A DNA stretch of 64,000 bases from positions 310,001 through 374,000 of the forward strand of contig NZ_JALJCK010000006.1 of NCBI RefSeq assembly GCF_022899355.1, in the 5' to 3' direction. The notes beneath the pieces were generated by a model. It was not told where the DNA came from, searched no databases, and worked only from the letters and a program-made list of their open reading frames with translations. A program made the translations under genes and the position numbers. This DNA comes from Shinella yambaruensis. GTDB lineage: Bacteria > Pseudomonadota > Alphaproteobacteria > Rhizobiales > Rhizobiaceae. Every line of letters begins with the position of its first letter. The first letter of the stretch is position 1. Of the stretch, positions 21,897-29,337 are shown piece by piece.

Positions 21897-22204
21897 GACT
21901 TCCTCCCCTTGTCGAAATCGACCTTGACGACTTTGCCGACAGGATCCCGGATCAACTGATCGAGCGCCGTTGTGGCCGCGCCCTCAAGCGATGCACGGGC
22001 GAGCATTCCGGCTTCCCCGAGCCGATGGACGGCCAGTTCCTGCTCCATGGCAGCGGCGAGCCGAAGCGCCAGGGCGAGTTCGACGACGACGTCCCGCGCC
22101 TTGTCGGCCGGCATCGTCTTTCCCTCGGCGGTGTAGGGCAGAATGCGGGCCGAGGCGTTTAGGATCGTGGCGCTCAAAGTGGCGTCATAGACGATGGGTT
22201 TCAT
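21893..22204 (-). CDS. Early phage protein of 103 residues, unknown
   Basis: Ala/Leu-rich helical protein (ARDVVVELALALRLAAAMEQELAV) ending basic (KVVKVDFDKGRKS). ATGA overlap with the MuB-like gene, so co-translated with it. No family recognised. Confidence 0.6.
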   Translation of the reverse strand: MKPIVYDATLSATILNASARILPYTAEGKTMPADKARDVVVELALALRLAAAMEQELAVHRLGEAGMLARASLEGAATTALDQLIRDPVGKVVKVDFDKGRKS

Positions 22205-23238
22205 GCCATGTCCTCGACATCACGGTTCTTCCACGCCTCGGTGATGTGGATGAGCGCCACGGTCTCGCCGCGACCGTTCGCATACATGGTGGCGAGCTTC
22301 ATGGTCTTGTCGATCTGCCGGAAGGCGCCGCCTTTCTTGCCGATGCCGATCAGGAACTTGGCGCAGTCGGGGTCCTCGATGCCCCATGATCTCACATAGG
22401 CGACGAGGTCTTCGGCATAGGGCTCCGGCCGCTGAAGGCGCTTGCCGATGCGGCTCTTGAGCTGATCGTAGGAGCGGTTTTTCTTCTTCTCCTTCGAAAA
22501 GCGGGTGTACACCTCGGCGTTGCCGACGATCGCGACCCCGCATTTGTAGACGTCGACGAAGTGGCGCAGCTGGTTGATCGCCTCGTCGTTGAGGTGCTGG
22601 CCCTCATCGACGATGAGCAGCGTGCCGTCGCCGGCCCGGCGGATCTTGTTGCCGATGGCGCGGGCGAGACGAGCGGGATTGTGCTCGCGCACGTCCAGCT
22701 CCTCGGCCAGTTCCGTCAGCATGCCGTGCACGGTCTTGGTGTTTTCCGAGACCGTCGCACGATAGACATGGCGACGGGACCGCTCGAAATGCATGCAGGT
22801 CTCGGTCTTGCCCATGCCGGCGCCGAGCGTGATCATGACGAGGTCGGGGCAGAGCTGCGCCCACATCAGCGTGTCGAGGATCTCGACCGTACCTCGCATC
22901 TTCATGAAGGGCGGCGACTGCGGGATGGTCGCGGCGATGGAGGCGTTCTCCTCGATCGCGGACAGCCACTGCAGGACGATCTTGTTGGTGCTGTCGAGGC
23001 GCCCGGAATACTTGCCGGAGAACCACTGGCTGAAGGTGCCGTCCGCCATGCCGATCCGCCGCGCGACCTCGGCCTTCGTCCAGCCGCTCGCCTTGGCCGT
23101 GTCGATCACGCCGTCGACCAGCTGCCACCACAGCTGGATATCCTCCTGCGACCTGTTGTCGAGGAGCACGGGCGGATTGACCGGACGCTCCCAGGTCGAT
23201 CCCGCCGTCATCTGGCTTGTGCCAACATGCTTGTTCAT
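22201..23238 (-). CDS. MuB-like transposition target ATPase
   Basis: A 345-residue AAA+ protein with MuB architecture. An N-terminal HTH (about 50-75: KASGWTKAEVARRIGMADGT) binds DNA; the ATPase has Walker A GAGMGKTET (139-147) and Walker B LLIVDEGQH (207-215), then sensor-like AIVGNAEV. MuB coats target DNA and delivers it to the transposase complex, and blocks insertion into the phage itself. It lies downstream of the transposase, as in Mu; gap 121 nt. Confidence 0.93.
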   Translation of the reverse strand: MNKHVGTSQMTAGSTWERPVNPPVLLDNRSQEDIQLWWQLVDGVIDTAKASGWTKAEVARRIGMADGTFSQWFSGKYSGRLDSTNKIVLQWLSAIEENASIAATIPQSPPFMKMRGTVEILDTLMWAQLCPDLVMITLGAGMGKTETCMHFERSRRHVYRATVSENTKTVHGMLTELAEELDVREHNPARLARAIGNKIRRAGDGTLLIVDEGQHLNDEAINQLRHFVDVYKCGVAIVGNAEVYTRFSKEKKKNRSYDQLKSRIGKRLQRPEPYAEDLVAYVRSWGIEDPDCAKFLIGIGKKGGAFRQIDKTMKLATMYANGRGETVALIHITEAWKNRDVEDMA

Positions 23239-23359: not shown

Positions 23360-25318
23360 TTACTTGCCGGCCTTATCCCCTCTCGGGAATGCGTGGACCG
23401 AGGCACCGGCGACACGGGCCATTGCCTTGGAAAATCCCTGTTCGAAATCCTCTGCGGGAACCGGCACCGCTTCGGGCGCGAGCTTGCCGGTGAAGATGCG
23501 CGTCACCTTCGGATGCACTGGCTCTGCCTTTTGGAGGTCGCGCTGGCCCTTGCGCAGGATTGCGGCGAGCTGGTTCTGGTTGAAGCGCTGCTCGGCGGCA
23601 GCGGCGGCGCGCGTTGCCTTGTCGAACTCGGCCCTGCCGCGCGCGTGGACGCGTCCCTCGTCCTGGTCCTTGAAGCCGGTATCGGCGATGCACGCTGCGT
23701 CACAGATGAACCGGTTCTTGAGGTCATACACCTTGATGGAGCCGTGCAGGTCATCGGGATCGAAGCGGATCGTCACCTGATCGCCCATGTGCTGGTTCAG
23801 CTCGCGGCTCCAGTACCGGTTGCCGGCGAAGTGCACTGCGCCGCTGCCCTTGTGGGTCTTGATCGTCTCGGAGGCGAGCAGCCAGAGGAAGCGCTGTGCC
23901 TCGGATGCACGCCGAACGATCGTCGTCGGCTGCTGCATGCTCTCCTCGAAGACGGCGTCGAAGCTGCGGCCCTTGGCGATCTGGGTTTTGCGGCCGGTTC
24001 GGGCGTTGTGCTCGGCGACCTGGTGCGCGATGAGCCGCTTCAGGTCCTCGATGTCGATAGCCGTCCTCATGTAATTGTCGGGCTTTTCGGTCGGCTTCTT
24101 GCCGGTATACGCCCCGGCGCAGACCGGATGCTTCGAGATGTCCTCGGCAAAATCGCCCCAGGCGCGTTCGATCGGCTTCGACTGGCCGGATTTCGGCAGA
24201 ACGAAATGCGGCTTGATCTTCAGGGCGACGAGCAGGCCTTCCGGGTCCTCGGGGCGGACCTTGAAGCGATAGCGTGTCTTCGCGCCGCCGGAGATTTTCT
24301 TCGAGGCGAAGGCCCGGCCGTTGTCGATGTACATGTCTTCGGGAATGCCGAAGCTCTCCACCATGTCGCCGACGACAAGGCGCACGACCTCCCATGTCTC
24401 CGCCTCGTCGAGCCGCCAGGACAGGATCTTGTTCGAATAGAGGTCCTGGATGCCGACCAGATACATGCGGATCGGCTTCTCGCGGTGCGGCACGCGGATG
24501 AAGAGGTCCAGCTGGTGCCCGTCCATGTTGACCGCTTCCATCGCGTGGAAGCAGGTGCGGTTCCGGCGCTGCGACGGATAGAGCGTCTTCGCCCGCTCGC
24601 GGCCCTCGCGGGTCACGACCTGGATCGCCTTCGGCACTTCGGCTTCCATCCGCCGGCGCAGGGACCGTTCGGAGGGGATCGGAGACCATCCCTCTATGGC
24701 GGCAGCTTCCAGGAGCCGGCGATAGCATGCGGAGAAGCCCGGCTTTTCCGGGCGCAGATAATCGGACTTCAGGAAATCCCAGGCGTCCGGATGGCATTCC
24801 GCCATCTGCGGCACGATGCCGTTGACGGCCGGGGAAGACGGAACGAGCGCGGGGAGCCAGTCTTCGGGGTCCAGGCCCTCGGTTGCCTTCCGCCACTCGT
24901 AATAGGCCGATTTCTGGATACCGGCATCATGGGTGGCAACCCCGATGGCGGCAAGGCGTGAGAGGCCGGCCTCGCGCACCAGCTGCTCGACGCGGACGAG
25001 CACCTTCAAGCGCGCCTCACAGACGTCTTTCGTCCCCTTCGGCAGTCGGTTGAAGACGGACCAGAGCAGGTTCTTTCGGGCGCGGGCCTCTTCCCAGGAG
25101 GCGCCGTCCGGCTGCTGGCGAAGCCGCCATTGCGCCGATGCGGGAAGAAGGCTGACATGGTATTCAACGACCGGACGCGTCTTTCCCTGACGCAGCTGGA
25201 CACAGCCTGCAACGCCGTTCCAATGGTCTTGGGCATGACGATAGAGGCTGCGCTCCGACGTCGGCAGGTCGGGAAGGTTGAGGGCCAAAAGTTCGGCGAG
25301 GGTGAACCACTCCTTCAT
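23360..25318 (-). CDS. MuA-like DDE transposase
   Basis: A 652-residue transposase (MuA is 663). Residues about 1-75 form the N-terminal DNA-binding domain, 80-245 the end-binding domains (CHPDAW... to SLRRRM at 175-224), then the RNase-H core with D266 (MDGH), D332 (IDNG) and E384 (KPIERAW), spacing like MuA D269/D336/E392. A beta-barrel and C-terminal B-interaction region follow. It inserts the phage DNA by replicative transposition. The start at 25318 overlaps the upstream stop (ATGA); the longer frame to 25411 is a shadow. Confidence 0.96.
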   Translation of the reverse strand: MKEWFTLAELLALNLPDLPTSERSLYRHAQDHWNGVAGCVQLRQGKTRPVVEYHVSLLPASAQWRLRQQPDGASWEEARARKNLLWSVFNRLPKGTKDVCEARLKVLVRVEQLVREAGLSRLAAIGVATHDAGIQKSAYYEWRKATEGLDPEDWLPALVPSSPAVNGIVPQMAECHPDAWDFLKSDYLRPEKPGFSACYRRLLEAAAIEGWSPIPSERSLRRRMEAEVPKAIQVVTREGRERAKTLYPSQRRNRTCFHAMEAVNMDGHQLDLFIRVPHREKPIRMYLVGIQDLYSNKILSWRLDEAETWEVVRLVVGDMVESFGIPEDMYIDNGRAFASKKISGGAKTRYRFKVRPEDPEGLLVALKIKPHFVLPKSGQSKPIERAWGDFAEDISKHPVCAGAYTGKKPTEKPDNYMRTAIDIEDLKRLIAHQVAEHNARTGRKTQIAKGRSFDAVFEESMQQPTTIVRRASEAQRFLWLLASETIKTHKGSGAVHFAGNRYWSRELNQHMGDQVTIRFDPDDLHGSIKVYDLKNRFICDAACIADTGFKDQDEGRVHARGRAEFDKATRAAAAAEQRFNQNQLAAILRKGQRDLQKAEPVHPKVTRIFTGKLAPEAVPVPAEDFEQGFSKAMARVAGASVHAFPRGDKAGK

Positions 25319-25542
25319 GCCGTGCCCGCCTTCTTCGCAGCGAGATATTCCTCGAAACCGGCCTTGTGCTGCTGGCAGAATTCGAGCGTCTTGAGGACGG
25401 CATGGATGCACACCATCAGCATCTCGGCTTCCTCGCGGCGCATCTTCCCGGCGCTCACCATCTGGTCGTATCGTTTCTCGACCTCGCCGATCAGCCGCTT
25501 GACCTCGGCGATCTGGCCGATGATGGAGACTTTCGCGGCCAT
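25315..25542 (-). CDS. Small coiled-coil early protein upstream of the transposase
   Basis: Seventy-five residues, nearly all helix (SIIGQIAEVKRLIGEVEKRYDQM, MLMVCIHAVLKTLEFCQQHK). Coupled to the transposase gene by ATGA and to the upstream gene by TGATG. No family recognised. Confidence 0.62.
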   Translation of the reverse strand: MAAKVSIIGQIAEVKRLIGEVEKRYDQMVSAGKMRREEAEMLMVCIHAVLKTLEFCQQHKAGFEEYLAAKKAGTA

Positions 25543-25763
25543 CAGCGTTCCCTCCGAATTACGATCGGAGCCGACCGCGACCGCTGTTCGGCGAGCACGC
25601 GAAGCATGCGCCGGCGCAACGAGCTTTCGGAGGGGATTGGCGACCAGCTATATTTGCGGGCCGCGTGATGCATGCGGCGATAGCAGGCGGAAAAGCTGGG
25701 TTTCTCAGGCCGTAGAAAGTCGGACATAAGGAAAGTCCAGGCAGAAGGATGACAAATGGCCAT
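25542..25763 (-). CDS. Standalone copy of the transposase end-binding domain
   Basis: Seventy-three residues. Nearly the whole protein aligns with residues 175-224 of the transposase next door: CHPSAWTFL against CHPDAWDFL, LRPEKPSFSACYRR against LRPEKPGFSACYRR, WSPIPSESSLRRRM against WSPIPSERSLRRRM. By eye about 37 of 50 positions match. That segment corresponds to a DNA-binding subdomain of MuA that contacts the phage ends. The protein lacks any catalytic part. It is coupled on both sides by TGATG overlaps, so it is made together with the transposase. A competitor or regulator of end binding is the likely role (inference). Confidence 0.85.
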   Translation of the reverse strand: MAICHPSAWTFLMSDFLRPEKPSFSACYRRMHHAARKYSWSPIPSESSLRRRMLRVLAEQRSRSAPIVIRRER

Positions 25764-26218
25764 CAGCGTTCCCTCCGGATATGCACCGGCGTGGAGCGCA
25801 GGGCGCGCAGCTCGGCCTTGATTGTCTCCTGTTCCTGCTGCAGGCGGGCGATTTCGGCGAGCCGCGCCTCGTCGCCGACGAGCAGGGTCGCGCCCTGGTC
25901 GGAGACGGCCTCGTCCCATAGCCACATGGCCCCGGTCGCATGCACGAAGGCCGCGAAGCGGGGCAGGGTGATATCGTGCCCGCCCTTGCTCTCGGCGGTA
26001 TAGGCGTCGAGCATCGCCTTGCTGATGGAGGGCAGGCCGAGATACTGCGCCATGCGGGCGGCGATCGTCGGACGATCATAGGGGCATTCGCGGATCGCGC
26101 GCGCCATTGCCCGCTTCATCTTCGAGCGGTAGCGGTCGATGTCGATGCGGGCGACGGGCGAGCGAACCGGGAACAGCGGCTGCGCGAAGAAATCGAGCTG
26201 AGAAGGGTCGCGCCTCAT
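25763..26218 (-). CDS. Conserved Mu-like early protein, 151 residues
   Basis: Start at 26218 overlaps the ParB-like stop (ATGA). The N-terminus has DPSQLDFFAQPLF. The middle, PYDRPTIAARMAQYLGLPSISKAMLDAYTAES followed by LPRFAAFVHATGAMWLWDEAV, is a helical pattern found in early regions of Mu-like phages (seen from memory, not searched). The C-terminus is a coiled coil (LAEIARLQQEQETIKAELRAL). Function unknown; DNA-binding is plausible. Confidence 0.68.
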   Translation of the reverse strand: MRRDPSQLDFFAQPLFPVRSPVARIDIDRYRSKMKRAMARAIRECPYDRPTIAARMAQYLGLPSISKAMLDAYTAESKGGHDITLPRFAAFVHATGAMWLWDEAVSDQGATLLVGDEARLAEIARLQQEQETIKAELRALRSTPVHIRRER

Positions 26219-27093
26219 TCCGCGGCCCTCGCGGCGAGCGCCGCCAGCACTTGCTCGACAAGCTCCTTCGGCAGACCGAGGTCGATCAGGAAGAAGCGGT
26301 GCGTGTGAACGTCGGCCTTGTCCCATATCGCATGCATGTCGGCCTGGATCGCGCGTTGGCGTTCCATGTCGGTGGTTGGGGTGGATGCTGTGGACGGGGC
26401 GGCCTTCGTCTTGCCGGCCCCCAACAGGGACCATGCCGCCTTCAGATCATTGGTTTTCTCGAAGGCGGAGATCAACTTCCCCTGTTCGGCAGGGCCGAGC
26501 TTCGCGACCTTGAGCAGCTCCGACTGGTTGTCGGCATAGGCCGTGCCCCGGAGGCGCTCCCGCATTTTGGGATGGAGGTTTTGAGCGATCGTGCTCAGCC
26601 GGAAGTATGCGCGACGGGAGAGCCCCATGCGGTCCGCGACGTGCTGGGAGAACCCGCCTGCCTCGGCCTCTTCCTCCAGTAATAGTGCCAAGTTGGCACT
26701 CTTCCCGGGCCGGCCGGCCTCCACCTTTCCGTGCTTCTCCTCCCAGACCTCGCGGTACTTGGCGACGAAGATCGCGCGATCGATGACGGACAGCTCGTTG
26801 CGGAAGAGGTTTTCCGTGATCTCGATGAGGTGAGCCTCGGCTTGATCGCCTTCGACGATCATCGCGTCGATTTCGCTGTCGTCGTTGATCTGGCACGCCC
26901 GGAGGCGGTGAGCCCCGGCGATAAGGGTATACTTGCCGCCCTTTCCGGCAGGTGTGAACCGAACCGTGATGGGGTTGATCTGGCCATGCTCGACCATGCT
27001 TTGCGCAATGGCCAGCGCCTCTTCATCCTCGACCGCGCGAAGACGCTCGGGCACGAAGACGTCAGAGATGGGAATGCGTTTGAACTCAGCCAT
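26215..27093 (-). CDS. ParB-like protein
   Basis: A 292-residue ParB/RepB/Spo0J-type protein. The N-terminal ParB box is clear: VRFTPAGKGGKYTLIAGAHRLRACQ and AHLIEITENLFRNELSVIDRAIF. A central HTH follows (AGGFSQHVADRMGLSRRAYFRLSTIAQNL). There is no ParA partner, so partition of a plasmid-like prophage is not implied; in Mu-like phages of alphaproteobacteria such genes sit between regulator and transposase and probably bind phage DNA. ATGA overlaps at both ends. Confidence 0.88.
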   Translation of the reverse strand: MAEFKRIPISDVFVPERLRAVEDEEALAIAQSMVEHGQINPITVRFTPAGKGGKYTLIAGAHRLRACQINDDSEIDAMIVEGDQAEAHLIEITENLFRNELSVIDRAIFVAKYREVWEEKHGKVEAGRPGKSANLALLLEEEAEAGGFSQHVADRMGLSRRAYFRLSTIAQNLHPKMRERLRGTAYADNQSELLKVAKLGPAEQGKLISAFEKTNDLKAAWSLLGAGKTKAAPSTASTPTTDMERQRAIQADMHAIWDKADVHTHRFFLIDLGLPKELVEQVLAALAARAAE

Positions 27094-28894: not shown

Positions 28895-29009
28895 AGATTT
28901 TGCCAAATGGACCATTTGGATGCGGCACCTGGCAAAATCTCAACTGCCGAGTTCCGGAGCTTAGGCTTTGAATTCTCTGCAATTTTCCGCTGTTCGGGAG
29001 ATTTTGCCA
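28895..29009. repeat. Three AGATTTTGCCA boxes and a 17-bp palindrome
   Basis: AGATTTTGCCA occurs at 28895-28905 and 28999-29009, and inverted at 28930-28940. The first box runs into a perfect palindrome, CCAAATGGACCATTTGG (28903-28919). Three identical 11-mers within 115 bp, in mixed orientation and next to the repressor, suggest transposase end sites or operators. Confidence 0.6.
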
Positions 29010-29109
29010 AGGTTGGCGATATCTAATTTGGATTTTCCCATGCTTTCGGCGCTCGCCAACGGCCTTTCGCCGCGCACGGCAAATCGCCTCAAACCCGGTT
29101 CACCGGGCT

Positions 29110-29313: not shown

Positions 29314-29331
29314 TATCCTCTGTCAGACAAC

Positions 29332-29337
29332 ACCCCC
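29332..29337. other. Proposed prophage end (attL) and target duplication
   Basis: On the minus strand the sequence entering the phage starts TGTTGTCTGACAG at 29332, where recombinase likeness ends. Mu-type elements start with TG and duplicate 5 bp, which would be CCCCC at 29333-29337. The other end is off the window, so this is a proposal only. Confidence 0.35.

Follow-up and report, generated by a model that had tools for sequence, protein, structure and literature searches.

The early operon and its prophage

The window, which is the whole 64,000-nucleotide stretch of Shinella yambaruensis DNA that was analysed, carries a set of prophage early genes on the minus strand in the order ParB-like, R151, I73, S75, A and B (Table 1). 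Residues D266, D332 and E384 of transposase A occupy invariant columns of a 12-row alignment. At each of the junctions R151/I73, I73/S75 and S75/A, all on one strand, a stop codon overlaps a start codon. I73 starts at a TGATG motif placed at the R151 stop and preceded by CGGAGGG, and it ends at a second TGATG behind an identical CGGAGGG. The gene overlaps suggest that I73 is translated together with A. The original prediction placed the gene just upstream of the transposase, but S75 intervenes before A.

Table 1. Features of the early operon and of the prophage that contains it
Feature	Position	Strand	Remarks
I73, separate I-gamma protein, 73 aa	25542..25763	-	residues 1-53 I-gamma, 54-73 tail
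I-gamma stretch inside A, counterpart of I73	24647..24805	-	A residues 172-224
ParB-like early gene	26215..27093	-	
R151, phrog_2345 transcriptional regulator	25763..26218	-	3′ end contains the ribosome-site-like sequence preceding I73
S75, 75-aa gene between I73 and A	25315..25542	-	no family over cut-off
Transposase A, 652 aa, intact frame	23360..25318	-	HTH_Tnp_Mu_2, DDE_2 and Mu-transpos_C over cut-off; HTH_Tnp_Mu_1 weak
Transposition protein B, MuB-like AAA ATPase	22201..23238	-	
Direct repeat copy 1, 20 nt exact	25758..25777	-	ribosome site, R151 stop, I73 start
Direct repeat copy 2, 20 nt exact	25537..25556	-	ribosome site, I73 stop, S75 start
Tentative left prophage end	29331..29332	.	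..ACA then CCCCC; partner TGT.. at L431:7090 after CCCCC

The prophage extends beyond the window start and includes frames that resemble capsid, portal and tail genes, an assignment made from the translations alone. A search for the phage ends gave four TG/CA candidates with 5 bp, about the number estimated to arise by chance. The favoured pair was picked for a common ATTTTGACACG motif and is tentative, an equally good motif having appeared in 2 of 60 shuffles. Several copies of AGATTTTGCCAA, with 0-2 mismatches and in both orientations, are present at 28895-29030, downstream of a repressor-like gene. These repeats were rejected as end sites, as a scan of the right-end region found none there. 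A frame at L431:7640-8551, close to where the right end of this prophage is presumed to be, resembles a DNA cytosine methyltransferase in its translation.

A separately encoded I-gamma subdomain

I73 displays an intact frame of 73 codons with an ATG start. Its residues 1-53 are identical to residues 172-224 of A at 39 of 53 positions (BLASTP E 8e-26), and the predicted identity of 37 in 50 with A residues 175-224 was exact on recount; the 50-residue segment, when shuffled 2000 times, gave at most 14 matches anywhere in A. At the DNA level the gene provides one member of a 164-nt repeat pair of 71% identity. The family profile PF09039, 'Mu DNA binding, I gamma subdomain', matches I73 over profile positions 32-87 of 109 (E 3e-15, 56.7 bits, against a curated cut-off of 20.5 bits). 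The predicted absence of a catalytic part also holds with family profiles, as neither DDE_2 nor rve matches the protein. Among solved structures, the I73 sequence matches at E up to 1 only the MuA entries 2EZH/2EZI and 4FCY. Of the 17 alignment columns common to at least 90% of 67 transposase rows, 16 are retained by I73, and the sole change is in the tail.

The homology stops at about residue 53-60, so that the subdomain is incomplete (the full one comprises about residues 174-245 of MuA). The BLASTP match to A does not extend to the last 20 residues, which resemble the C-terminus of R151 (RSAPIVIRRER vs RSTPVHIRRER), the likeness being exact only across the final 20 nt. The GC content at third codon positions (GC3) of I73 is 0.66, compared with 0.80-0.89 in the early genes of the window, but the I-gamma stretch of A is itself low (0.74 vs 0.83 across A), and values as low as that of I73 occur in 2% of the 53-codon windows taken from the early genes.

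An AlphaFold2 model of I73, made with a 70-row alignment (pLDDT 86.2, pTM 0.71), has predicted helices at residues 6-16, 24-38, 46-62 and 66-72, with the last two ten-residue blocks weaker (62 and 54). With this model, the top four Foldseek hits are two MuA chains of 4FCY together with 2EZH and 2EZI. TM scores against MuA I-gamma are 0.70 (query) and 0.78 (target) for 2EZH and 0.71-0.73 (query) for 4FCY. By sequence and predicted fold, I73 is a separately encoded I-gamma, the subdomain with which Mu-type transposases bind ends. It differs from I-gamma of MuA in having its own gene and in being devoid of I-alpha, I-beta, the catalytic parts and the last part of the subdomain.

Separate I-gamma proteins in other elements

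Neither viral contigs nor genome contigs gave a match in single-sequence searches with I73. No other clear separate copy was found with I73 in 297 genomes of the family (30 with any match) or 385 of the class (10 with a match), or with PF09039 in 21 genomes of the same genus (7 with a match), the genome of origin being included in each count. Weak matches in one genome of the family (G014) and one of the class (G659) fall within short frames that are interrupted by an in-frame stop. Matching phage records number 31, with one place each, and are annotated as transposase or transposition protein in 20 cases, as integrase in one and otherwise in 10; five plasmid records have one match each, all annotated as transposase-type. 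An orthologue of I73 proper was not found across the viral, family, class, same-genus, phage and plasmid searches.

The same type of protein is nevertheless encoded elsewhere. Scans with I-gamma and A profiles, with the best 80 loci taken for each, gave the loci L192, L296 and L390, and further profile scans of loci found no case beyond these three. L390 (Rhizobium sp. SL86) and L296 (a viral contig) contain orthologous I-gamma genes of 85 amino acids situated exactly at the R151 junction. L192 encodes a 232-amino-acid separate domain I, matched by both the I-alpha and the I-gamma profile, and its gene directly precedes that of a full A. The model of the L390 protein is weaker than that of I73 (pLDDT 73.6, pTM 0.58) and shows four helices followed by a tail of low confidence; of the 17 columns above, the L390 protein keeps 16 and the L296 protein 15, whereas a typical transposase row retains every one (median 1.00, minimum 0.68).

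When 398 genomes of the phylum were searched with PF09039, 18 had a match, and two further separate I-gamma frames were revealed beside a full transposase, in genomes G940 and G1009. The G940 protein (L091:7472-8068) consists of 198 amino acids and combines I-gamma with a weak match to a CI-repressor HTH (E 0.008, below cut-off); its gene is between a ParB-like frame and a frame judged R151-like by eye. In G1009 (L092:5941-6312), a separate end-binding domain of 123 amino acids directly precedes a TniA-like transposase accompanied by TniB and TniQ, and it aligns with the domain of that transposase over 85 residues, with close similarity. Among 198 relatives of G1009 (32 with a match), no separate case was found in the inspected frames, a set that leaves out short or middling frames in G1339 and G1316 (contig edges), G1424 and G1292. 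Among 199 relatives of G940 (16 with a match), genome G1192 encodes a fusion of I-gamma with a DNA methyltransferase (phrog_799, E 1.2e-44). The fusion gene, at L139:4067-5116 (the same as L111:1465-2514), belongs to the early operon of a Mu-like prophage and follows a ParB-like gene and precedes a 127-aa gene and a frame that is R151-like by eye. The fusion may represent an enzyme aimed at phage ends.

All of these proteins resemble I73 in that they contain I-gamma, are without a DDE domain, and are encoded upstream of a full transposase on the same strand. They differ from it in length, in origin and in their partners, which are the weakly CI-like HTH, the DNA methyltransferase or the whole of domain I. 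A search of other Mu-like phages, as the original prediction proposed, shows that separate I-gamma recurs and is rare: it was found in 6 of 286 A clusters (the window, L390, L296, L192, G940 and G1192), and an earlier count on fewer loci gave 6 of 213. Clusters were formed at 95% identity with at least 500 bases upstream, and the G1009 transposase is outside the set. The sample is non-random, as the domain itself was the query that brought in G940 and G1192, and the L390 and L296 genes are orthologues. Given its repeated occurrence in other Mu-like phages, the separate form is not a single accident.

Several candidate hits were dropped from the count. In L169 the A gene is cut short and has no DDE; L277/L367 (E 0.04) represents another protein; the L482 match (E 0.005) is by eye the end of a ParB-like frame; and L432 carries a TniA-like transposase that was missed by the DDE profile.

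The L390 and L296 separate genes differ at 20 nucleotides, 13 of them at third positions. The six resulting amino acid changes compare with 13.0 expected under neutrality (simulation P=0.0005, or 0.0016 without the junction), and the gene is thus under purifying selection. For the same pair, dN/dS is 0.19 for the separate gene, 0.16 for A (stop-to-stop frame), 0.06 for the small gene that follows and 0.006 for R151. The DNA identity of the separate gene, 92%, is similar to that of neighbouring genes (90-91%), and therefore the gene was inherited with its neighbours. The dN/dS between I73 and A is 0.14, but their divergence may predate the separation of the two, and the value is hence uninformative on present function.

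Flanking repeats and empty sites

The 20-nt repeat that flanks I73, CGGAGGGAACGCTGATGGCC, is present at both junctions. The closest A found among the best 80 loci, that of L244 (87% identical), is in an operon that lacks an I73-type gene; there R151 passes directly into an S75-type gene via the identical 20 nt. In 22 relatives in which the gap between R151 and A was read, the gap contains an S75-type gene in seven, another small gene in seven and nothing in eight, and a separate I-gamma in none. In L390 the separate gene is flanked by an exact 21-nt repeat that holds the ribosome site and start of that phage and differs in sequence from the repeat in the window; L296 has the equivalent with two differences. 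An empty site of this lineage is found in L295, whose A groups closely with theirs.

A functionless I73 is one possible explanation of these data, and is put at somewhat less than an even chance. I73 would then be a transient product of mosaic recombination, with a frame that is open and translatable by chance and that is lost via the flanking repeats. The exactness of these repeats, the absence of the gene from L244 and from all 22 relatives, its rarity among A clusters, the truncation of I-gamma with an R151-like tail as a cap, and the low GC3 are all consistent with such a history. It is less easily reconciled with the intact frame, start and ribosome site of I73, its conserved residues and confidently predicted fold, or with the purifying selection on the equivalent L390/L296 gene and the repeated occurrence beside A. 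The original prediction had named a rare decayed duplication, not kept in relatives, as the outcome that would count against it. The gene is indeed rare and is absent from its nearest relatives, but decay is not evident in I73, and in the L390/L296 lineage the same kind of gene has been inherited at the same junction under selection.

The gap between R151 and A, which is at 25315-25763 in the window, is a variable spot among the relatives.

Origin of the domain

A tree of 96 I-gamma segments (68 columns) is weakly resolved, with bootstrap values not settled and some long branches. Its starred branches require a minimum of four transitions between the separate and the built-in form. For G1192, G940 and L192, the separate protein is paired with its own A, whereas the proteins of L390 and L296 pair together (100/100) and away from theirs. 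The position of I73 is unsettled; it is outside the starred pair formed by its own A and that of L244. In-situ duplication as a simple source of I73 is disfavoured, since I73 does not pair with its own A, allowing for this unsettled place, and since its tail is R151-like. Modules at the R151 junction appear to have been gained more than once and were probably also lost more than once, as indicated by the tree, the repeats and the empty sites in L244 and L295, with the direction of change being the likely one rather than observed.

Identity to their own A is 46-48% for the L390 and L296 proteins, but to the A of other phages it is up to 64% and 61%, respectively. When 265 A segments and six separate proteins are ranked by score, the own A is at about place 119 for L390 and 135 for L296. 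GC3 of the two separate genes is 0.62-0.64, compared with 0.80-0.81 in their A. The domain in L390/L296 is thus apparently of foreign origin. I73 is 74% identical to its own A and 74% to another A, and its domain may also derive from another phage's transposase. By identity the G940 protein is slightly closer to a second A encoded in its genome (60%) than to its own (57%).

Because of the apparently foreign origin in L390/L296, a role against rival phages is worth considering, although it is judged improbable. The free domain would read the ends of the donor Mu-like phages and block their transposition in the lysogen. This is a special case of competition with the transposase, and the likelihoods of the two overlap. 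Such a role is suggested by the identities of the L390 and L296 proteins and their separation from their own A in the tree, by the equal distance of I73 from its own and another A, and by the low GC3 of the separate genes. Counter to it, three of the separate proteins, those of L192, G940 and G1192, are placed in the tree beside their own A, a 68-column tree resolves such relationships weakly, and low GC3 is partly a property of the I-gamma stretch of A as well. The original prediction missed both the possible source in another phage's transposase and the joining of I-gamma to other proteins in related operons.

Possible roles of separate I-gamma

MuA uses I-beta together with I-gamma to recognise the phage ends, and within the transpososome I-gamma is in extensive contact with protein, according to the portion of the report cited (PMC3362531). 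In the insertion sequence IS1, InsA is the end-binding part of the transposase, competes with InsAB′ at both IS1 ends and, when overproduced, nearly abolishes IS1 transposition, as the cited part of PMC12428005 describes. As with I73, InsA represents a transposase end-binding part without a catalytic part, and it is made with its transposase; the counterpart in I73 is the run of overlapping same-strand genes that leads to A. In the cited text, however, translation from the beginning of the transposase frame itself yields InsA if there is no frameshift, and InsA is also a repressor of the promoter (PMC12428005), whereas I73 is a separate and divergent copy.

These contacts of MuA I-gamma (PMC3362531) and the InsA precedent (PMC12428005), within the cited parts of both sources, are the reason why competition in trans is favoured. 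I73 is hypothesized to be an accessory end-binding module that acts in trans as a competitor of the transposase, a reading whose probability is only slightly under one half. We infer that recombination at the junction of R151 and the next gene of the early operon would have led to the gain of I73. I73 and A would be expressed from one message, and I73 would occupy the I-gamma half-sites in the ends of its phage or of another, related transposable phage. An alternative target would be the I-gamma contact surface in the transpososome. Occupancy by I73 would lower or tune transposition, as InsA does for IS1.

Competition is supported by the I-gamma identity and fold, the conserved columns, the CGGAGGG/TGATG junctions, an A with conserved D266, D332 and E384 two genes on, the recurrence, the selection in L390/L296, and L192. 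The failure to find an I73 orthologue, the lack of the gene in L244, and the weaker constraint on the L390/L296 gene (0.19) than on R151 and the small gene argue against it, and the 20-nt repeats would permit clean loss of I73. In addition, I-gamma alone may bind weakly because end recognition by MuA, in the portion of the study cited, uses I-beta and I-gamma (PMC3362531), and I73 is without I-beta and without the C-terminal part of I-gamma. In the case of I73, a functionless recombination product is nearly as likely as a competitor, since its I-gamma stands alone without an I-beta partner and the distribution is very patchy. For Mu-like phages more widely, a separate I-gamma may be an add-on brake on transposition rather than debris.

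That the free domain instead assists synapsis or protects the ends seems very unlikely. I73 is in the same operon as A, and the protein contacts of I-gamma in the Mu transpososome, as the cited portion of PMC3362531 presents them, would be in keeping with a helper. A separate I-gamma is evidently not needed, however, since 280 of the 286 related A clusters are without one, and competition is the more natural expectation for a free domain devoid of the remainder of A.

Truncated transposase products that limit transposition are known in the KP repressor of the P element and in Tn5 Inh, the latter of which acts by binding its partner. To our knowledge, neither is a phage-operon module. The original prediction knew of no described Mu counterpart, and this agrees with a search of the open-access literature, largely at the abstract level, in which no account was found of a Mu-type phage that encodes an end-binding subdomain as a separate protein. 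While transposase-derived inhibitors are already known, separately encoded I-gamma in Mu-type phages represents a new form with a putative function.

A broader and rather doubtful proposal is that I-gamma is a portable end-reader that has been repeatedly released, either alone, as the whole of domain I or joined to an HTH region or a DNA methyltransferase, and exchanged between phages at one operon junction, where it would control transposition of its own or rival Mu-like phages in trans. The repeated occurrence, the purifying selection in one lineage and the apparently foreign source of the domain make self-tuning, or conflict between phages via pieces of transposase, directly testable in Mu-like phages.

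Another transposase piece was seen in a search of 151 genomes with phrog_13142, which is like MuA I-alpha. Among the matches listed, 26 of 27 are in frames of at least 642 amino acids, and one, at G092:C8:150715-150885, is in an open frame of 204 amino acids and is possibly another separate piece of a transposase N-terminus.
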